Positions 15,132 to 56,575 of a stretch of DNA of 64,000 bases are shown here, one piece after another. A program made the position numbers and the translations under genes. The first letter of the stretch is position 1, and every line of letters starts with the position of its first letter. The notes under the pieces were generated by a model. The model searched no databases and was not told the origin of the DNA. It saw only the letters and a program-made list of their open reading frames with translations. The stretch spans positions 1,178,001 through 1,242,000 of the forward strand of contig NZ_CP119802.1 in NCBI RefSeq assembly GCF_029338355.1, given 5' to 3'. This stretch comes from Halosegnis marinus (GTDB lineage: Archaea; Halobacteriota; Halobacteria; Halobacteriales; Haloarculaceae).

Positions 15132-15443
15132 ATGGCTCCCGACGACGACAAGCGGAACTTCGCACTGCGCGACGCGACCGGCAACGAGACGAGCGTCTTC
15201 TCGGGACGGACCCCGAGACAGGCGGCACTGAAGGCCGCCCGACGACTCGACCCGGCCGACACGGAACAGCACGCCGAACACACGGAGCTCCGGCTCCGCG
15301 AGAAAGGGACGAAGAAGGTCCACATCTACGACGGCTGGGCCTGGCACGAGACGGCTCCCGACGACAAGCCGGACTGGATGCCCTCGGAGATAACCGAGGC
15401 GAACGTCTCGAAGAAGGGCATCGAGCATCTCGACGAGATCTGA
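15132..15443 (+). CDS. Non-histone chromosomal protein MC1
   Basis: 103 residues matching the MC1 fold, which bends DNA sharply and binds four-way junctions. The core is KRNFALRDATGNETSVFSG, then TPRQAALKAARRL, then LRLREKGTKKVHIYDGWAW and the end PDWMPSEITEANVSKKGI. The basic residues in EKGTKKVHIY and the Trp of YDGWAW correspond to the MC1 DNA-binding arm. Haloarchaeal copies have extra acidic residues, as here. It lies directly upstream of the rRNA promoters and may help set nucleoid structure there. A T-rich stretch (CCCCCATTTTC) right after the stop may end its message. Confidence 0.95.
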   Translation: MAPDDDKRNFALRDATGNETSVFSGRTPRQAALKAARRLDPADTEQHAEHTELRLREKGTKKVHIYDGWAWHETAPDDKPDWMPSEITEANVSKKGIEHLDEI

Positions 15444-15494
15444 ACTCCTCCCCCATTTTCGACGGCGTATCGGGGCCACTTTAGTCGCGTCGCG

Positions 15495-15540
15495 CGTACG
15501 CACGGACGCGCGGCACTCATCCGGCCCGACCGTGCGTACG
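15495..15540. repeat. Inverted repeat upstream of the rRNA promoters
   Basis: CGTACGCACGG at 15495-15505 pairs perfectly with CCGTGCGTACG at 15530-15540, separated by 24 nt. It could be a terminator hairpin for MC1 or a protein-binding site; no T-tract follows directly. Confidence 0.5.
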
Positions 15541-15805
15541 AGCGCGGAGTGAGGGTCCGTTCTCCGGCCGCGCGACACCACGCCGCGAGCGGACGCGCTA
15601 TCCTGCACGGTTCACCATGAGTGTCCGGGCCATGAAACCGCATGACGGAGCGCCCCCGATACGACGGGGTTAAGTGTATCACTCCCATCGACTGTGATGT
15701 GACAGGCGCGGGGCGTTCCCCTCGGGGACGCGCCGCCCGGACACCGTCTCGGTGTCCCGCGTTCCGACTCGGTCGGTGCGCGAAGCCGGAGTTCGATTCG
15801 ATGTC

Positions 15806-15815
15806 CTTATACGTA
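15806..15815 (+). promoter_or_regulatory. rRNA promoter P1
   Basis: CTTATACGTA preceded by TTCGATTCGATGTC and followed by ACAGGGCACTCGGA. This agrees with the conserved haloarchaeal rRNA promoter pattern, in which TTCGA is followed by a TTATGTA-like box and the start lies in or near CTCGGATG. Confidence 0.8.
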
Positions 15816-15888
15816 ACAGGGCACTCGGACGGAACACGCTCGCACCCGTCTCCGACGGGCTGTGACAGCACGCTTCCGTTCCGACGCC

Positions 15889-15898
15889 CTTATACGTG
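15889..15898 (+). promoter_or_regulatory. rRNA promoter P2
   Basis: CTTATACGTG, 83 nt after P1, preceded by CCGTTCCGACGCC and followed by AACGGGCGCTCGGATT. Same element as P1 with a few changes. Confidence 0.8.
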
Positions 15899-15969
15899 AA
15901 CGGGCGCTCGGATTCAAATACGCGCTTCCCGGGTCAACCGGGGCACGGCGCGGCGACGAATCCGACGGC

Positions 15970-15979
15970 CTTATACGTA
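15970..15979 (+). promoter_or_regulatory. rRNA promoter P3
   Basis: CTTATACGTA, 81 nt after P2, preceded by GAATCCGACGGC and followed by ACAGGGCACTCGGATGG. It is almost identical to P1 over 26 nt. The near-equal 81-83 nt spacing suggests tandem duplication. Confidence 0.8.
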
Positions 15980-16065
15980 ACAGGGCACTCGGATGGAACG
16001 CACACGACGTGACCGAGATGGCCTTCGACGGTCGTCTCGTCTCGGTCCCGAACGAGCTTCGATGG

Positions 16066-16075
16066 GTTTATGACC
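16066..16075 (+). promoter_or_regulatory. Possible fourth rRNA promoter (P4)
   Basis: GTTTATGACC, preceded by GCTTCGATGG, lies 96 nt after P3. The TTCGATG and TTTATG parts match the P1-P3 pattern but the CTCGGATG initiator part is missing, so it is weaker or inactive. Confidence 0.45.
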
Positions 16076-16154
16076 CGTCGAGGGGTATGTTCAGGTCCGA
16101 AGGAAATGAGGATTCGACCCCTGCGGTCCGCCGTACACGATCGAATCTGATGTT

Positions 16155-16196
16155 AGCCCTGATGGTTCGGTGACACCCGGTATGGTGTCGCCGACC
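16155..16196 (+). other. 16S processing stem, 5' arm
   Basis: Bases 16155-16168 (AGCCCTGATGGTTC) pair perfectly with 17810-17823. Bases 16176-16181 pair with 17797-17802, and 16184-16196 (GGTGTCGCCGACC) pair perfectly with 17783-17795. The unpaired bases between the helices form the bulge-helix-bulge that archaeal splicing endonuclease (endA, this window) cuts to release pre-16S. Confidence 0.85.
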
Positions 16197-16270
16197 GATC
16201 CCACAGATAGCGATATACACATCTCTTCGGAGATGTGTCCCGCCTAACCCTCCAGCATCCGCTGGAGAAC

Positions 16271-17737
<1,467 letters not shown>

Positions 17738-17782
17738 AAAGACCGGGACCGGGGTTTCACCCCGGCCCACCTTCGTGGGTTC

Positions 17783-17823
17783 GGTCGGCGACACCGACCG
17801 GGCACCTTAGAACCATCAGGGCT
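17783..17823 (+). other. 16S processing stem, 3' arm
   Basis: Complement of 16155-16196: 17783-17795 (GGTCGGCGACACC) is the inner helix, 17797-17802 the middle helix and 17810-17823 (GAACCATCAGGGCT) the outer helix. It closes the precursor around 16S, upstream of tRNA-Ala. Confidence 0.85.
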
Positions 17824-17874
17824 ACAGTCGCGACCGCTACTCGCTCGACGCGTAGCTACCGGTCGCGGCTGCCA

Positions 17875-17946
17875 GGGCCCATAGCTCAGTGGTAGAGTGC
17901 CTCCTTTGCAAGGAGGATGCCCGGGGTTCGACTCCCCGTGGGTCCA
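17875..17946 (+). tRNA. tRNA-Ala(UGC)
   Basis: Acceptor GGGCCCA/TGGGTCC with discriminator A. D-arm TAGCTCAGTGGTAGAG; anticodon stem CCTCC/GGAGG around loop TTTGCAA, anticodon TGC at 17907-17909. T-arm GGGGTTCGACTCCCC. 72 nt, CCA not encoded. The 16S-23S spacer position of tRNA-Ala is standard in euryarchaea. Confidence 0.98.
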
Positions 17947-17966
17947 TGTACGCGACGAACCGTGCC

Positions 17967-17976
17967 CCTTATGTGT
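17967..17976 (+). promoter_or_regulatory. Spacer promoter ahead of 23S
   Basis: CCTTATGTGT inside CGTGCCCCTTATGTGTGGCA, followed by GTCCGATG. It repeats the box and initiator pattern of the leader promoters, so extra initiation upstream of 23S is likely. Spacer promoters are known from Halobacterium rRNA operons. Confidence 0.6.
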
Positions 17977-18088
17977 GGCACCGTGTTCGTCCGATGTACG
18001 ACCGATGCACCACGCCGTGCGAGCGGGGTGGGAAGGGTGGATGTGCACACCGGCTTGCAACCGGGTGCCGCGATGAAACCGTATGTAC

Positions 18089-18119
18089 GTGCAATCCAGG
18101 CGCTCACTGGACCCGTTCA
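18089..18119 (+). other. 23S processing stem, 5' arm
   Basis: GTGCAATCCAG (18089-18099) pairs with CTGGATTGCAC (21080-21090), and CTGGACCCGTTCA (18107-18119) pairs with TGAACGGGTCCAG (21060-21072). The 7-nt segments between the two helices (18100-18106 and 21073-21079) form the bulge-helix-bulge cut by the splicing endonuclease. Confidence 0.88.
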
Positions 18120-18134
18120 CTGTGCTCAGTGATC

Positions 18135-21038
<2,904 letters not shown>

Positions 21039-21059
21039 TCAATCATCGCACTGACCCAT

Positions 21060-21090
21060 TGAACGGGTCCAGGCGCAAACTGGATTGCAC
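21060..21090 (+). other. 23S processing stem, 3' arm
   Basis: Partner of 18089-18119; both helices are perfect over 13 and 11 bp. Lies 22 nt after the end of 23S. Confidence 0.88.
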
Positions 21091-21118
21091 ATGCATACGG
21101 TTGCATCATCACATGCAC

Positions 21119-21173
21119 CACCGATACAGGCGTTCCCCACGCGGGGATCGCGGTTCGACTCCGCGAATCGGCG
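21119..21173 (+). ncRNA. Mini-tRNA (acceptor stem plus T-arm) preceding 5S
   Basis: CACCGAT (21119-21125) pairs with ATCGGCG (21167-21173) except for one A-C mismatch. A textbook T-arm follows the acceptor geometry: stem CGCGG (21149-21153), loop TTCGACT, stem CCGCG (21161-21165). A small hairpin CCCC/GGGG (21135-21145) replaces the D and anticodon arms. The acceptor ends exactly at the base before 5S. In Haloferax volcanii a tRNA-like element at this place directs tRNase Z to make the 5S 5' end, and the same use is inferred here. Confidence 0.75.
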
Positions 21174-21295
21174 TTAAGGCGGCCATAGCGGCGGGGACAC
21201 TCCCGTACCCATCCCGAACACGGAAGATAAGCCCGCCAGCGTTCCGGCGAGTACTGGAGTGCGCGAGCCTCTGGGAAATCCGGTTCGCCGCCTGC
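21174..21295 (+). rRNA. 5S ribosomal RNA
   Basis: Starts TTAAGGCGGCCATAGCGG; internal CCCGTACCCATCCCGAACAC and GATAAGCCCGCCAGCGTTCC are universal archaeal 5S marks. The closing helix AAGGCGGC pairs with GCCGCCT near the 3' end. About 122 nt; the 3' end is accurate to one or two bases. Confidence 0.96.
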
Positions 21296-21401
21296 CAATC
21301 ATATCACGGCCTCACGGGCACCGCGCCCGTGGGGCCGTTTTCATTTACGGACGGAGCCGATGGCTCCGACGCGAACCGCCCAGCGGCGGCACCGCCGACC
21401 G

Positions 21402-21411
21402 CTATACTTAA
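21402..21411 (+). promoter_or_regulatory. TATA box of tRNA-Cys
   Basis: CTATACTTAA, 28-37 nt before the tRNA. It suggests that tRNA-Cys can be made independently of the rRNA operon. Confidence 0.65.
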
Positions 21412-21438
21412 CCGAGGCAGTACACTACCGACGACTGC

Positions 21439-21512
21439 GCCAAGGTGGCAGAGTGGCCTTACGCGGTCGCCTGCAGAGCGACTACACGCCGGTTCGAATC
21501 CGGCCCTTGGCT
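21439..21512 (+). tRNA. tRNA-Cys(GCA)
   Basis: Acceptor GCCAAGG/CCTTGGC with discriminator T(U), the cysteine identity base. Anticodon stem GTCGC/GCGAC around CTGCAGA gives anticodon GCA at 21473-21475. T-arm GCCGGTTCGAATCCGGC. 74 nt, CCA not encoded. Distal position in the rRNA operon is usual in haloarchaea. Confidence 0.97.
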
Positions 21513-21615
21513 TGGTCCGAGACACGGAGCGGCTGCTGGGGCGATTCTCCACACGACCGCCGGGATGCGTCCCCGTCCGCGGTGGCTTTTTGCTCCCCGC
21601 CGGTCCAGCGGGGGT

Positions 21616-22050
21616 ATGGAGATCGAGACGGTCCTCGTTCCCGTCGACGGGAGCGAGGAGTCGGTCGCGGCCGTCGAGTACGGCGTCGCGATAGCCGACG
21701 CGTACGGGGCGTCGGTCCACGCGCTGTACGTGTTGGGCGAGGGAATGGTCCGCGGGGTGGAAGCCGGGGACCTGGCGGACGAGGAGGTCGCGGCCGAATC
21801 GGAGGCGTTCCTGGACGAGGTACAGCGGATGGCCGGCGACGTGCCGGTGAGCCGAGCGATGGCCGCGGGCTTCTCGCTGTCGCAGCTCTCGCGGCATCCC
21901 GGTAGCGTCATCCTCGACGCCGCGGACGACGTGGCGGCGGACTTCCTCGTCGTTCCGCGGGAGCCGCTGACCGGCGACCCGAGCGCGGTCATCGAGAAGG
22001 CGGCCGAGTACGTCCTCGCGCACGCGTCCCAGCCGGTGCTGTCGGTGTGA
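21616..22050 (+). CDS. Universal stress protein, UspA family
   Basis: 144 residues with the UspA fold: start MEIETVLVPVDGSEESVAAVEYGVAIADAYG, then ALYVLGEG, and the end VLAHASQPVLSV. The usual ATP loop G-x2-G-x9-G-S/T is not clear in VVPREPLTGDPSAVIEKAAEY, so it may be a non-ATP-binding type. Start ATG at 21616, 104 nt after tRNA-Cys. A role in stress physiology is only inferred from the family. Confidence 0.85.
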   Translation: MEIETVLVPVDGSEESVAAVEYGVAIADAYGASVHALYVLGEGMVRGVEAGDLADEEVAAESEAFLDEVQRMAGDVPVSRAMAAGFSLSQLSRHPGSVILDAADDVAADFLVVPREPLTGDPSAVIEKAAEYVLAHASQPVLSV

Positions 22051-50459: not shown

Positions 50460-51737
50460 ATGAGCAATCGGGACCTCGGCTTCCACACGCGGTGTCTCCA
50501 CGCCGGGCACGACCCGGACCCCGCGACGGGGGCGGTCGCGCCGCCAATCTACCAGACCACCTCCTACGAGTTCGCGGACGCCGACACGGCCGCGGACCTG
50601 TACGCGCTGAAGGGCGACGACCACGTTTACTCGCGCATCTCGAACCCGACCACGGGGACGCTCGAACGGCGCCTCGCCGACCTCCACGGCGGGACGGGCG
50701 CGTGTGCCACCTCGTCGGGGATGGCGGCGCTCGACGCCGCGACGCTGGTGCTCGCGGACGTGGGCGACAACGTGGTCTCGGCGTCCTCCATCTACGGGGG
50801 GACGCACGCGTACCTGAGCTACACCGCGCGCCGCCGGGGGGTCGAGGCGCGGTTCGTGGACACGCTCGACCCCGAGGCGTACGCCGCGGTCATCGACGAG
50901 GACACGGCGTACGTCCACCTCGAAACCGTCGGGAACCCGTCGCTGGTGACGCCCCCGATAGAGGACATCGCCGACGTGGCTCACGAGCACGGCGTCCCGC
51001 TGCTCGTGGACAACACGTTCGCGACGCCGGCGCTGTGCCGGCCGTTCGACCACGGCGCGGACCTCGTCTGGGAGTCCACGACGAAGTGGATACACGGCTC
51101 CGGGACGACGGTCGGCGGCGTCCTCGTGGACGGCGGCTCGTTCCCGTGGGGCGATTACCCGGAGAAGTACCCCGAGGTGACGGCGAACCCGGCGTTCGAC
51201 GGGCTGGACTTCACGGAGCGGTTCGGGGACCGGGCGTTCGAGGCGGCCGCCCGCCAGCGGGGCCTCCGCTCGCTGGGCGACCAGCAGAGCCCCTTCGACG
51301 CGTGGGCGACGCTCCAGGGAGTCGAGACGCTCGGCCTGCGGATGGGCCGCCACTGCGAGAACGCCCGCGCCGTCGCGGAGTGGTTGGCCGGGAACCCCGA
51401 CGTGGCGTGGGTGAACTACCCCGGCCTTGCGGACCACGAGACGCACGACCTCGCGGGGGAGTACCTCGACGGGTACGGCGGGATGGTAACTTTCGGGCTG
51501 ACGGACGGCTTCGAGGGCGGCAAGCGCGTCTGCGAGGAGGTGGAGGTGGCGACGTTCCTCGCCAACATCGGGGACGCGCGCACGGTCGTCATCCACCCGG
51601 CGAGCACGACCCACGCCCAACTGTCGGAGGAGGAACAGCGCGCCTCCGGCGTCACGCCCGACCTCGTCCGACTGTCGGTGGGACTGGAGGACCCGGAGGA
51701 CATCGTCGCGGACCTCGACGGGGCGATCTCGGCATGA
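50460..51737 (+). CDS. metY: O-acetylhomoserine sulfhydrylase / cystathionine-gamma-synthase family
   Basis: 425 residues of the PLP Cys/Met-metabolism family. Landmarks: [38 protein letters not shown] start, [33 protein letters not shown], Schiff-base Lys in [11 protein letters not shown] (residue 206 or near), and the C-terminal [19 protein letters not shown]. The length and the [22 protein letters not shown] insert agree with MetY (O-acetylhomoserine + sulfide to homocysteine). It overlaps metX by 4 nt, which supports this assignment. Confidence 0.92.
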
Positions 51738-52927
51738 CGGAACTGTCGCTCGGCGAGTTCGAGTTCGACTGCGGGGAGTCGGTGCCCGACCTCACCGTCG
51801 CCTACGAGGAGTACGGGGAGTTCACCGGGGACAACGCCGTCCTCGTCTGTCACGCGCTCACCGGCTCCCAGCACGTCGCCGGGCGTCGCCGCCGGGGCGA
51901 CACCGCGGGGCAGGCCGCGGCGTGGTGGGACGACATCGTCGGCCCGGGCAAGGCCATCGACACGAACGAGTACTACGTCGTCTGCGCGAACGTGCCGGGG
52001 TCGTGTTACGGCTCGTCGGGCCCGCCGTCGGAGGCCCCCGACGGGGAGCCGTGGGGGACCCGCTTCCCGGCGGTGACCGTCGGCGACTGGACGCGCGCGC
52101 AGCGCCGCCTGCTCGACGAACTCGGCGTTCCGAACCTCCACGCCGTCGTCGGGGGGAGCGTCGGCGGGATGAACGCGCTCGACTGGGCGAAACAGCACCC
52201 GGACGGCGTCGAGCGGGTCGTCGCCGTCGCCACCGGGGCGCGGCTGGACGCGCAGTGTCTCGCGCTCGAAGCCATCGCGCGGCGGGCCATCACCACCGAC
52301 CCCGACTGGGACGGCGGCGACTACTACCCCGGCGACGGGCCGGTGCAGGGGCTCGCGCTCGCCCGGCAGGTCGGCCACGTGATGTACCTCTCGAAGTCCT
52401 CGATGGAGAAGAAGTTCGGCCGGCGCTCCGCGGGCATGGACGCCGCGCGCGACGCGTTCGAACTCGACCCCGCGGCGGGCTTCTTCCCGTACCGCGAGGT
52501 CGAGTCGTACCTCGACTACAACGGCGAGCGGTTCGCGGAGCGGTTCGACGCGAACTCCTACCTCTACCTGACGCGGGCGATGGACAGCTACGACCTCGCG
52601 GGCGGCTACGACTCGGACGCGGACGCGCTCGCGGCGTTCGACGGCGAGGCGCTCGTCCTCTCCTTCACCGGCGACTGGCACTTCACCGTCGAGCAGGGGG
52701 AGGCGCTCGCCGAGGCGGTCCGCGAGGGTGCGGGCCGCGTCGCCCACCACGTCGTGGAGTCGGACCACGGCCACGACGCCTTCCTCGTCGAACCGGAGTC
52801 GGTCGGCCCGCCGCTCGACGACTTCCTCGCCGACGGCGTCCGGGGCCGGGCCGTCTCCGACACCGTCGAGGAGGCGGACACGGGCGACGACTTCGCGCCC
52901 GTCCACACCAGCCTCTTCTCGCGGTAG
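51734..52927 (+). CDS. metX: Homoserine O-acetyltransferase
   Basis: 397 residues, alpha/beta-hydrolase fold. [20 protein letters not shown] then the oxyanion segment LTGSQHVAG; nucleophile Ser in [19 protein letters not shown]; Asp in [11 protein letters not shown] and His in [11 protein letters not shown] complete the triad. It supplies O-acetylhomoserine to MetY, encoded directly upstream (ATGA overlap). Together they complete a direct sulfhydrylation route to methionine precursors. Confidence 0.94.
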
Positions 52928-53392: not shown

Positions 53393-54025
53393 TCAGACCA
53401 GCCCGTGTGTCTCGAACAGCGCGAGCAGGTCGGGCATCGTCGTCACCGTCTCGTCGCAGGCCGGCGCGACAGCGGGCTTGGGCGCGAAGCCGACCGCGAG
53501 GCCCGCCGCCTCCAGCATCGGGAGGTCGTTCGCGCCGTCGCCGACCGCGACCGTGTCGGCCACCGGGACGCCGTACTCCGTGGAGAGGCGCGCGAGTTCG
53601 TCGTCCTTCGTCCCCTCGATGAGCGGCCCCTCGACCTCGCCGGTGAGTTCGCCGTCCGCGACGGGGAGGCGGTTGGCGACGACGACGTCGACGGTGGTTC
53701 CCGCGCGGGCGAGCGCCGCTTCCACGCCGCGCTCGAACCCGCCAGTGAGGACGGCGACGGTGTGGCCGGCGGCCCGGAGCGCGTCGATGACCTCGGCCGC
53801 GCCGTCGCGCAGCACCACCTCGTCGAACGCCGCGGCGGCCTCGCTCTCGGGGAGGCCGTCGAGGAGCGCGGCGCGCTCGCGCAGCGACGTGGCGTACTCT
53901 ATCTCGTCGTTCATCGCGCGCTCCGTGATGGCCGCCATCTCGTCGGCGACGCCGCGGCGCTCCCCGAGGAGCACGGTCATCTCGGAGTCCGAGAGCGTCC
54001 CGTCGAAGTCGAAGGCTACGAGCAT
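53393..54025 (-). CDS. serB: Phosphoserine phosphatase-type HAD hydrolase
   Basis: 210 residues. The HAD motif I is MLVAFDFDGTLSDSEM, motif II AVLTGGFERGVEAAL (T/G-G-F), motif III Lys in IEGTKDDELARL, and motif IV VAVGDGANDLPMLEAAGLAVGF. The helical cap is of SerB type (LPESEAAAAFDEVVLRDGAAEVIDALRAAGH). Dephosphorylates phosphoserine in serine synthesis if substrate holds. Start ATG 54025 follows the longer frame's ninth residue. It lies 46 nt downstream of the flippase-like gene on the same strand. Confidence 0.85.
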   Translation of the reverse strand: MLVAFDFDGTLSDSEMTVLLGERRGVADEMAAITERAMNDEIEYATSLRERAALLDGLPESEAAAAFDEVVLRDGAAEVIDALRAAGHTVAVLTGGFERGVEAALARAGTTVDVVVANRLPVADGELTGEVEGPLIEGTKDDELARLSTEYGVPVADTVAVGDGANDLPMLEAAGLAVGFAPKPAVAPACDETVTTMPDLLALFETHGLV

Positions 54026-54071: not shown

Positions 54072-55088
54072 TCACGACCGCGCGACGACCGCGAGCGCGG
54101 CGAGGCCGCCGAGCGCGAGCGCGAACCAGTAGCTCATCACGCGGTAGACGAGCGCGGCCGCCAGCCCCTGCGCGAGCGTCAGTCCGGTGAGCGCGACGAG
54201 CAGGGCGACGAGCGCCGCCTCCACGCCGCCGAGGCCGCCGGGCGAGGGCGTCAGCCCCGCGAGCGTCGAGGCCGGGACGACGAACAGCACGAGCAGGGGA
54301 GTGATGGACGCGAAGCCGAGCGTCTGCCCGGCGAAGTACAGCGGGAGCGCGAAGAACACCCACCCGAGGTAGGCGAACGCGACGGCCTCCACGAGCGCGA
54401 CGCGGTCCTGCGCGATGCGGCCGAACGCCTCGTACAGGCCGTCGATGCGCGCCGCGATCCCCTCGACGGAGAGCCGGTCGGTGAGGCCGGCGACCGGCTC
54501 CGCCAGCCGGAGCAGGCCGCCGCGGACGCGCTCGCGGAACCGCCAGCCGACGACGACGAGCGCGGGGACGCCGAGCGCCATCGCGAGCAGGCCCTGTGCC
54601 AGCCCCTTCGCCGCGGCGGGGAGCGACGACTGGAGCAGGAGCACGGAGAGGCCGACCGCCGAGAAGGAGAAGAAGGGGAGTAGGTTCAGCAGGTCGGCGG
54701 TGACGACGGAGGCCAGCGACTCCTCGTAGGTGGCGTCGGTGTCCCGCGAGAGGACGTACGCGATGAACGGCTCGCCGCCGGCCTGCCCGAGCGGGGTGAC
54801 GTAGTTGGCGAACGTCGCGGCGAAGTACGTGACGACGAGCCGCCGGTACGCCACGTCGATGCCCGCGACCCGGAGGACGACCTGCCAGGCCTTCCCCCAC
54901 AGCGCGAGACAGGCGGCCGTCGAGAGACAGCCGACCGCGAGCCAGCGGGGGTCCGCCTCGGCGAGCGCCCGCGTCACCTGGTCGAGGCCGACCCCGAGGA
55001 CGAACAGCGCGAGCACGACGGCGGCGACCAGAAAGCCCGCGAGCGTCTTGGCGAGCGTCCCGCGGTCGAGGGGGAGCGAGGAGGCCAC
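54072..55088 (-). CDS. Flippase-like (LPG synthase TM/UPF0104) membrane protein
   Basis: 338 residues with about eight to nine membrane helices and the LPG_synthase_TM/AglD-C-like pattern: GKAWQVVLRVAGIDVAYRRLVVTYFAATFANYVTPLGQAGGEPFIAYVLSRD, and near the end LAGLTPSPGGLGGVEAALVALLVALTG. In haloarchaea this domain occurs in AglD and polyisoprenol sugar carriers. GTG start at 55088 overlaps the sulfatase-type stop by 1 nt (TAGTG), so translation is coupled. Likely moves a lipid-linked head group across the membrane. Confidence 0.9.
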   Translation of the reverse strand: MASSLPLDRGTLAKTLAGFLVAAVVLALFVLGVGLDQVTRALAEADPRWLAVGCLSTAACLALWGKAWQVVLRVAGIDVAYRRLVVTYFAATFANYVTPLGQAGGEPFIAYVLSRDTDATYEESLASVVTADLLNLLPFFSFSAVGLSVLLLQSSLPAAAKGLAQGLLAMALGVPALVVVGWRFRERVRGGLLRLAEPVAGLTDRLSVEGIAARIDGLYEAFGRIAQDRVALVEAVAFAYLGWVFFALPLYFAGQTLGFASITPLLVLFVVPASTLAGLTPSPGGLGGVEAALVALLVALTGLTLAQGLAAALVYRVMSYWFALALGGLAALAVVARS

Positions 55089-56575
55089 TACTCCAGGTAG
55101 CCGAGGTCCTGCAGCCGGTCCTTGGTCGCCCCGTCCATGTCGCCGAGCACGTCCGCGTCCGGGTCGTAGTCGTCGTCCCACGTCTCGCCGACGCGCGCCT
55201 CGAACTCCCGAAGCGTGGCCTCCACCTCGGCGAGCACCTCGTCGTCCGCGCCCGCGAGGTTCTCGGTTTCGTCGGGGTCGCGGTCCAGCCGGTACGCCTC
55301 GTCGTCGATGCGCTCGTTGCGGACGTACTTCCCGTCGGGGCGGCGCGCGGCCCGCATCCGCGAGTAGAACCGCGAGTCCTCGTCGAGGTCGATGCCGGCC
55401 TCCGCGGCCTTCGTCTCCAGCTGTTTGAGTTCGACCACGGGCCGGTGGTACTCCACGAAGGCGTACTCGCCGTCGGCGAAGTCGCGGTAGTCCGCGGAGA
55501 GGAGCGAGCGCGCGGTATCGACGGGTTCGCCGGTCTCCGTGGCCTCGACGCCCGCGAAGTCGAGCACCGTGTGGTAGAGGTCCTGCATCTCCACCTGCAC
55601 GTCCGACCGGCTCGGCTCCGTGCCGGGCGCCTTCACGAGCAGGGGGACGTTGACGAGCGGGTCGTAGATGCCGAACTCGTGGCCGTACAGCCCGTGTTCG
55701 CCGTGGAGCTCGCCGTGGTCGGCACAGACGACGACGAGGGTGTCCTCCCACTGGTCGGTCGCCTTCAGGTGGTCGAACAGCCGTTCGAGCTCCGCGTCGA
55801 TGTGGCGTATCTCGGCGTCGTACAGCCCCCGAATGTCGTCGAACTCTCCCTCGGAGATGTCGCGCGCCCCGGAGTTGTACTCCTTCGAGTTCTGACACAC
55901 CTCGTCCGGGTCCACCCCGGGCGCGAACTCCTCGCGGTACTCCTCGGGCGGATACACCGGGAGGTGGGCGTCCATCAGGTTCACGAACGCGAACCACTCG
56001 TCGGCCTCCTCGGTGAACGCGACCGTGTTGTCGATGACCTCGGGCGTCTTCGAGTCCGCGCCCTCCGCCCCGGCGAAGTACTCGTGGACGTCGTTGCCCA
56101 GCTCCACGAGGCGGTTCGCTATCGCGCGCATCCGGTCGTTGTCGTTGACCTTCTGCCAGAGATCAGCGAGCGTTCCGGAGAGGAACTCGCCGGGCATCAC
56201 CTCGAAGAAGTTGTCCTGCTCGTCGAACCCCGCCGTGAGTCGGGTGTACGGCGTTATCCACGCGTTCGAGGAGTAGCACGCGGTGTCGTAGCCGGCCGCG
56301 CGCATCGCCTCCGCGAGCGTGCCGACCGACTCGTCGAGGTACGGCTGTTCCTGGCTCGCGCCGTGCTCGCTCGGGTAGCGGCCGGTGAACATCGAGGCGT
56401 GGACGGGGAGCGTCCACGGCGCGGGCGAGACGGCCTGCTCGTACACCGTCGCCTCCTCGGCGAACGATTCGAGCGCCGGCGTGGTGGGCCGCTCGTACCC
56501 GTACGGCGTGAGGTGGTCCTTGCGGACCGTGTCCATCACGACGAAGAGGACGTTCCGGTCCGGGGCCGGTGTCAT
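55088..56575 (-). CDS. Sulfatase-fold (alkaline phosphatase superfamily) enzyme
   Basis: 495 residues. DRNVLFVVMDTVRKDHLTPYGYERPTTP supplies the first metal ligands. The nucleophile position reads APWTLPVHASMFTGRYPSEHGA, where sulfatases have C/S-x-P-x-R; here a Thr takes the place of Cys/Ser. Metal ligands follow: VVVCADHGELHGEHGLYGHEFGIYDP. No formylglycine-compatible Cys, so a phospho- or sulfo-transferase (Thr nucleophile, as in LTA synthases) is as likely as a hydrolase. No signal peptide; the stop meets the flippase-like GTG (1 nt overlap). Confidence 0.85.
   Translation of the reverse strand: MTPAPDRNVLFVVMDTVRKDHLTPYGYERPTTPALESFAEEATVYEQAVSPAPWTLPVHASMFTGRYPSEHGASQEQPYLDESVGTLAEAMRAAGYDTACYSSNAWITPYTRLTAGFDEQDNFFEVMPGEFLSGTLADLWQKVNDNDRMRAIANRLVELGNDVHEYFAGAEGADSKTPEVIDNTVAFTEEADEWFAFVNLMDAHLPVYPPEEYREEFAPGVDPDEVCQNSKEYNSGARDISEGEFDDIRGLYDAEIRHIDAELERLFDHLKATDQWEDTLVVVCADHGELHGEHGLYGHEFGIYDPLVNVPLLVKAPGTEPSRSDVQVEMQDLYHTVLDFAGVEATETGEPVDTARSLLSADYRDFADGEYAFVEYHRPVVELKQLETKAAEAGIDLDEDSRFYSRMRAARRPDGKYVRNERIDDEAYRLDRDPDETENLAGADDEVLAEVEATLREFEARVGETWDDDYDPDADVLGDMDGATKDRLQDLGYLE

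Follow-up and report, generated by a model that had tools for sequence, protein, structure and literature searches.

A window of 64,000 nucleotides from the haloarchaeon Halosegnis marinus (contig NZ_CP119802.1; host genome 2.81 Mb) contains two overlapping genes on the reverse strand. The first encodes P0001, a sulfatase-fold protein with a threonine (Thr) at the nucleophile position, and the second encodes P0002, a flippase-like membrane protein. With about even confidence, P0001 is read here as a cytosolic group transferase with a Thr nucleophile, most likely for sulfate, which would act on glycans linked to a lipid carrier before an MprF-type flippase moves them. The basis of this reading is the gene anatomy, the conservation, the predicted folds, a correspondence of active-site residues and a repeated association with flippase genes; N-glycan sulfation has been published for paralogs only.

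A candidate threonine active site in a sulfatase fold

The features of the gene pair, in positions of the window, are given below. The conservation rows (n = 107) comprise the query and 106 distinct open reading frames (ORFs) from 121 ortholog loci.

55088..56575, reverse strand: P0001, sulfatase-fold protein (alkaline phosphatase superfamily), 495 amino acids (aa), without a hydrophobic segment
56531..56533, reverse strand: Asp15, predicted metal ligand by its alignment to an Asp of 4upl; D in 106 of 107 rows
56393..56422, reverse strand: translated as APWTLPVHAS, residues 52-61 of P0001
56411-56413, reverse strand: codon of Thr55; T in 106 of 107 rows
55964..55966, reverse strand: His204; conserved in 107 of 107 rows and aligned by hhalign to a His of E. 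coli EptA
55715..55720, reverse strand: Asp286-His287, predicted metal ligands; 107 of 107 rows at both positions, aligned by hhalign to EptA
55679..55681, reverse strand: His299 (Asp286+13); 107 of 107 rows, His in EptA and Lys in formylglycine (FGly)-type enzymes
55086..55090, reverse strand: TAGTG, in which the P0001 stop (TAG) and the P0002 start (GTG) share one base (G)
54072..55088, reverse strand: P0002, PF03706/TIGR00374 flippase-like membrane protein with an MprF-like fold, 338 aa

P0001 scores 155.4 bits against the Pfam profile PF00884 (Sulfatase; cut-off 25) and is thereby a member of the alkaline phosphatase superfamily, while P0002 scores 153.2 bits against the flippase-like profile PF03706 (cut-off 33.4). 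The overlap of a sulfatase-fold gene with a flippase gene, which the original prediction had read from the letters TAGTG, was confirmed. The same prediction had placed a Thr where sulfatases carry Cys or Ser. This was borne out by a phmmer alignment with 4upl, in which Thr55 falls without a gap on the Cys, His59 on an Arg and Asp15 on an Asp. The Thr is also conserved throughout the orthologs, the sole exception being a broken copy in Halolamina pelagica CDK2 (L083) with a frameshifted N-terminal part, presumably the same row that departs at Asp15.

The remaining residues recall the phosphoethanolamine transferases. When 41 orthologs were compared with E. coli EptA by hhalign, over residues 198-345, His204, Asp286-His287 and His299 fell on a His, an Asp-His pair and the His at +13. 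The acid and the Thr of EptA were matched by spacing only, the Thr by counting without gaps to the Met-Phe just behind it (as read from the alignment table), and the residue table with EptA was built by regular expression, not from structure. On these matches, P0001 carries the set of a phosphoethanolamine transferase-type active site: an acid, a Thr, an Asp-His pair and a His at Asp+13. In MCR-1, Thr285, Asp465, His466 and His478 are required for activity and His395 is dispensable (PMC5153839); the counterpart of His395 would, by position, be His204 of P0001. Compared with EptA and MCR-1, and also with LtaS, the position of the Thr nucleophile, the Asp-His pair and the His at +13 are the same, but P0001 lacks a membrane anchor and the sequence similarity is remote.

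The arylsulfatase of E. faecium depends on D20, C61, D311 and H312 for metal binding and activity, and R65, K110 and K324 are the basic residues of its site (PMC12421950). By spacing, P0001 retains three of these positions (D15, D286 and H287) and has Thr55 for the Cys, His59 for the Arg and His299 for the Lys. The same three substitutions set it apart from the S1 sulfatases and phosphonate monoester hydrolases, with which it shares the fold and the Asp and Asp-His metal ligands of EfAS/SpAS2 type. Among the haloarchaeal rows of Ser/Thr type, P0001 included, the regular-expression table mostly has a His at Asp+13, +16 or +18. Of the other rows, the Cys-type L165 has a Lys at +13, L143 has no His before +20 and L160 did not match the motif expression.

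The AlphaFold2 model of P0001 has a predicted template-modelling score (pTM) of 0.82 and a mean predicted local distance difference test (pLDDT) of 76.9. Its weak stretches include 123-149, 290-294, 301-303 and 469-495, and the loop round His294 and His299 is therefore poorly placed. Its fold comes nearest to those of S1 sulfatases and of phosphonate monoester hydrolases, one of the latter being the best Foldseek match (9.5e-19). The VIA comparison gave Z values of 28.1-34.1 over the 50 matches listed (top 34.1), in line with the superfamily fold. Two of the ten best fold matches, 5g2u and 6hhm, are also the closest structures to Agl30 and Agl31 (PMC11980604). EptA and LtaS do not appear among the 50 Foldseek/VIA matches listed, so that the likeness to these transferases rests on residues and not on fold rank. 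For P0002, a search of its sequence against solved structures gave nothing significant, but the fold comparison did: its model (pTM 0.82) matched MprF with Z 18.0-20.3 over 285-291 residues, and only MprF entries exceeded Z 8 (next match 5.9). P0002 has the fold of the MprF flippase domain (PF03706) but lacks the synthase domain.

The highest hydropathy over 19 residues is 0.78 in P0001 and 0.64-1.41 in its orthologs. No anchor or signal was apparent in the hydropathy scan of P0001, and a secreted enzyme is disfavoured on these low values (no dedicated signal-peptide predictor was run). P0001 is predicted from its sequence to be cytosolic and, since it lacks a hydrophobic segment, would do its work at the inner side of the membrane, ahead of the flippase. 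The original prediction had proposed a two-step route in the opposite order, in which a surface glycan or lipid is modified after the flippase has moved the lipid-linked group. That order was not upheld; the coupling with a flippase finds support in the recurrent association described below.

Relatives of P0001 and the neighbourhood of its orthologs

An identity as FGly (S1) sulfatase was rejected, as three published patterns are matched by none of the 106 distinct ortholog ORFs, namely the catalytic pattern [CS]-x-[PA]-x-R (CxPxR, taken from PMC5066984), the GYxT...GK motif and the Asp-[Asp/Gln] pattern of Ca-binding 1. A Thr occurs at the Cys/Ser position in 30 of the 59 Pfam PF00884 seed sequences, and the sulfatase status of such sequences has been doubted (PMC5066984). 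Since it is common there, the Thr alone is not new. In NCBIfam, P0001 has weak matches to phosphoethanolamine transferases and LtaS; the phosphoethanolamine transferase profile NF028537 gave 40.1 bits, below its curated cut-off of 500.

Most likely, P0001 works like Agl30 (VNG1056C) and Agl31 (VNG1057C) of Halobacterium salinarum without being their ortholog, and is no member of the formylglycine sulfatases. Both Agl proteins have the alkaline phosphatase superfamily fold, as does P0001, and Agl31 is soluble and cytosolic, as is predicted for P0001. Their deletion abolishes most N-glycan sulfation, and when expressed in Haloferax they bring about sulfation of its (foreign) glycan (PMC11980604). 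The available text of that paper, in a word search, makes no mention of 3'-phosphoadenosine 5'-phosphosulfate (PAPS), of a donor, of threonine or of a nucleophile. Nor does it report for Agl30 or Agl31 an overlap with a flippase gene, a feature that sets P0001 apart.

The published S-layer peptide of Halobacterium salinarum matched 4 of 13 genomes of the genus, with 83% as the best value, and two proteins of the Halobacterium locus L157 stood in for Agl30 and Agl31, selected for their gene order and for a hydrophobic stretch at the N-terminus. These probable orthologs share with P0001 an Asp, a hydroxyl nucleophile, an Asp-His pair and a later His, but the nucleophile is Ser and not Thr. That P0001 is itself the Agl31 ortholog was rejected: in a tree of 25 orthologs and 16 paralogs, with many long branches, its orthogroup forms a clade of its own (100/100). 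In the same tree, the Agl31-syntenic protein of L157 is joined (100/100) by another protein of the host genome, L004, which on this sequence evidence is the probable Agl31 ortholog of the host. The L004 gene (G000:C1 near 241,500) encodes a 460-aa sulfatase-fold protein of Ser type (WSVPSHAS) and lies beside a GT2-like gene. A third sulfatase-fold gene is present in an AglB-type cluster of Halobacterium (L157:1125-2552, reverse strand), with the motif WTPASSAS and a His at Asp+13.

With P0001 as query, 157 of the 293 genomes sampled from the order gave a match at E <=1e-140, and no best match fell between 1e-140 and 4e-78 (hand count). A profile search of 392 genomes of the phylum gave 58 matches at E <=1e-40, and every listed one came from the own genome, the same family or the same order. 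Orthologs at E <=2e-228 were found in 32 of the 392, all from the same order, the next match being 1.1e-90 (hand count). Three genomes of about 1 Mb from one family (G001, G018, G032) have kept the ortholog at 53-54% identity (L087-L089), which a DedA-like reading frame precedes by about 3 kb in L088 and L089.

The gene caller found the ortholog in 118 of the 121 loci and missed it in L087-L089; in 30 of the 121, the flanks extend over only about 1.5 kb. The adjacency of a flippase gene, noted in the window, recurs in 56 of the 118 gene-called loci, where a PF03706 gene lies next to the ortholog on the same strand (35 loci, with gaps of -1 to 61), divergently (12) or convergently (9). The same-strand partners constitute one group (100/100), whose identity to the partners in the other two orientations is 27-37%; divergent and convergent partners are 42-48% identical to each other. 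From the three orientations with three PF03706 groups it follows that the link arose, or the partner was swapped, more than once. Clustering at 85% yielded 54 clusters, with the PF03706 gene adjacent in 24 (16 same strand, 8 divergent), absent from the locus in 26, in the locus but non-adjacent in one and the ortholog not called in three. Convergent loci form no separate class, as they fall into the same clusters as some same-strand loci.

Further neighbours within the 118 loci, by their Pfam names, were VTT/DedA (20), GT4 (15), arylsulfotransferase-like (12), AglB (4), DUF368 (4) and PMT-like (2); an Agl30-like gene is present in 13 of the loci. No Pfam profile matched the Agl30-like representative, and its identity to the L157 protein is 30%. 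A recurrent gene order is PF03706 < > P0001 > Agl30-like > GT4 > GT4. DUF368 and DedA proteins have been proposed as polyprenyl-phosphate translocases (PMC9876793). The arylsulfotransferase-like genes (PF05935) lie at most about 3.5 kb from the ortholog (L059, L090-L094, L098, L100, L101, L103, L106 and L115).

The original prediction had also pointed to a phosphatase that follows on the same strand:

53393..54025, reverse strand: SerB, phosphoserine phosphatase, next gene on the strand

This gene is present (168.6 bits against TIGR00338, cut-off 144.15), but SerB as a third part of the system was rejected, as it is not a conserved neighbour: apart from the window's own locus, serB matched none of the 121, of which 30 have the short flanks noted above. 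Around the region lie a MetY/MetX pair (50460-52927, forward strand) and, upstream of P0001, the nitrite/sulfite-reductase-like P0004 (56959-58731, reverse strand). MetY adjoins the ortholog in near relatives as well (L006, L007, L035, L037, L038 and L042, of which L006 and L035 are the same gene), and a link to sulfur assimilation through MetY and P0004 was set aside as lineage-local. Elsewhere in the window, 15443-21616 has no called genes, with a tRNA-Ala inside and a tRNA-Cys near its end, and is probably an rRNA operon.

The transferred group, the acceptor and competing explanations

That P0001 is a group transferase, as originally predicted, is consistent with its fold and its candidate active-site residues. 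A possible but doubtful alternative is that it is a cytosolic hydrolase, for example a nucleotide-sugar pyrophosphatase or phosphodiesterase of NPP type, that would salvage glycan precursors or control their quality. Residues 9-72 match PF01663 (E 3.3e-13), the top Foldseek match is a hydrolase, and the superfamily is promiscuous, as the E. faecium enzyme cleaves sulfates, phosphates and phosphonates (PMC12421950). However, the His set of P0001 matches transferases, and Agl30-like and flippase neighbours suit synthesis better.

Of the groups that the original prediction had considered for transfer, sulfate is favoured over phosphate and phosphoethanolamine solely by analogy with Agl30 and Agl31. 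It is unlikely that the group is instead of phospho type (phosphate, phosphoethanolamine or phosphoglycerol) and that P0001 puts it on a membrane lipid or lipid-linked glycan in the manner of EptA or LtaS, but on the cytosolic side. The correspondence with EptA at the active-site positions and the weak NCBIfam matches would suit such an enzyme. EptA/LtaS-type enzymes are, however, membrane-anchored with the catalytic domain outside, and P0001 has no anchor. Moreover, the only haloarchaeal relatives that have been tested transfer sulfate (PMC11980604).

An improbable variant, of much the same standing, keeps the sulfotransferase but gives it a membrane glycolipid as acceptor (sulfated diglycosyl archaeol) in place of a glycan linked to dolichol phosphate (DolP), with P0002 flipping the glycolipid. 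Haloferax has sulfated glycolipids, this variant needs no N-glycan sulfation there, and MprF, which P0002 resembles, is a lipid flippase. The GT4, AglB, DUF368 and Agl30-like neighbours point to glycans instead. Least probable is a merely local gene overlap without functional meaning, to which the 26 clusters without a PF03706 gene, some with short flanks, lend some weight but against which stand the recurrence in three orientations with distinct partner groups and a chance adjacency of well under 1% (rough estimate).

The preferred reading is sulfation of a lipid-linked glycan before it is flipped. A DolP-linked sulfated hexuronic acid is reported from Haloarcula hispanica (PMC9943897), and for Haloferax it has been proposed that the DolP-bound glycan may have to be sulfated by Agl7 to be translocated (PMC3871713). 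A screen of 8800 transposon mutants yielded 17 non-motile ones, one of them with its insertion in hvo_0069, a 'sulfatase' gene with PanE as neighbour (PMC5198076). Of 11 PF00884 loci in two Haloferax genomes, only the 2 with the P0001 ortholog have PanE at their side, and each of 15 Haloferax genomes (genus assigned from named loci; Hfx. volcanii itself not recognised among them) has exactly one ortholog; on these two grounds, HVO_0069 is taken as the probable ortholog of P0001. The envelope role that the original prediction had assumed thus gains from the glycan-type neighbours in several lineages and from the published motility defect. Two findings by which that prediction was to be refuted, a Thr that is not conserved and a missing envelope effect, do not agree with the evidence available.

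Several observations weigh against the preferred reading. The HVO_0069 phenotype comes from one insertion, and the orthology from synteny. According to PMC11980604, Haloferax volcanii has an N-linked pentasaccharide without sulfate; N-glycan sulfation alone therefore fails to explain the motility effect, and another acceptor or group would be needed. The 26 clusters in whose fetched flanks no PF03706 gene was found include Haloferax, although some of these flanks measure only 1.5 kb. By the tree, P0001 is not the Agl31 ortholog, and in its genome that part probably falls to L004. Phospho groups are what the characterised Thr enzymes cited here (EptA/MCR type) transfer. Finally, canonical adenosine 5'-phosphosulfate (APS) kinase was found at E <1e-40 in 20 of the 293 genomes, the window's genome not among them (hand count).

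The Halobacterium genomes searched also gave no strong APS kinase match, though the genus sulfates glycans; the distribution of this kinase was thus uninformative on a PAPS link. The sulfate donor of haloarchaea looks unsettled, as APS kinase is sparse despite the known glycan sulfation in Halobacterium.

The proposed route and its significance

In the proposed mechanism, Thr55 would be activated by a divalent metal, with Asp15, Asp286 and His287 as its ligands. The Thr would then take a sulfo group, or less likely a phospho group, from a soluble donor, presumably as a covalent Thr intermediate. Subsequently, the group may be passed at the cytosolic face to a glycan on dolichol phosphate or another membrane lipid, where a hydroxyl of one of the sugars would accept it, and His204 and His299 may assist. 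In the last step, the MprF-like P0002 would move the modified lipid-linked glycan outward, to the S-layer, the archaellum or an exopolysaccharide.

A bolder and rather doubtful extension is that the Thr-linked sulfo or phospho tag acts as an 'export licence', which a dolichol-carried glycan must bear to be recognised by the MprF-type flippase. Its loss would then block both glycan export and archaellum function, and the class with Thr/Ser, Asp-His and His(+13) would comprise cytosolic group transferases that are annotated as sulfatases across the haloarchaea.

The P0001 gene occurs in about half of the haloarchaeal genomes sampled, and the annotation of its probable Haloferax ortholog goes no further than (aryl)sulfatase. 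If P0001 is indeed a transferase, many haloarchaeal 'sulfatases' would be biosynthetic rather than catabolic. On this reading, P0002 would become a candidate for the flipping of a lipid-linked glycan, which is poorly defined in Archaea, and the so far unexplained non-motile Haloferax mutant would be accounted for. The gene pair would make the idea of sulfation before translocation, as proposed for Agl7 (PMC3871713), directly testable.

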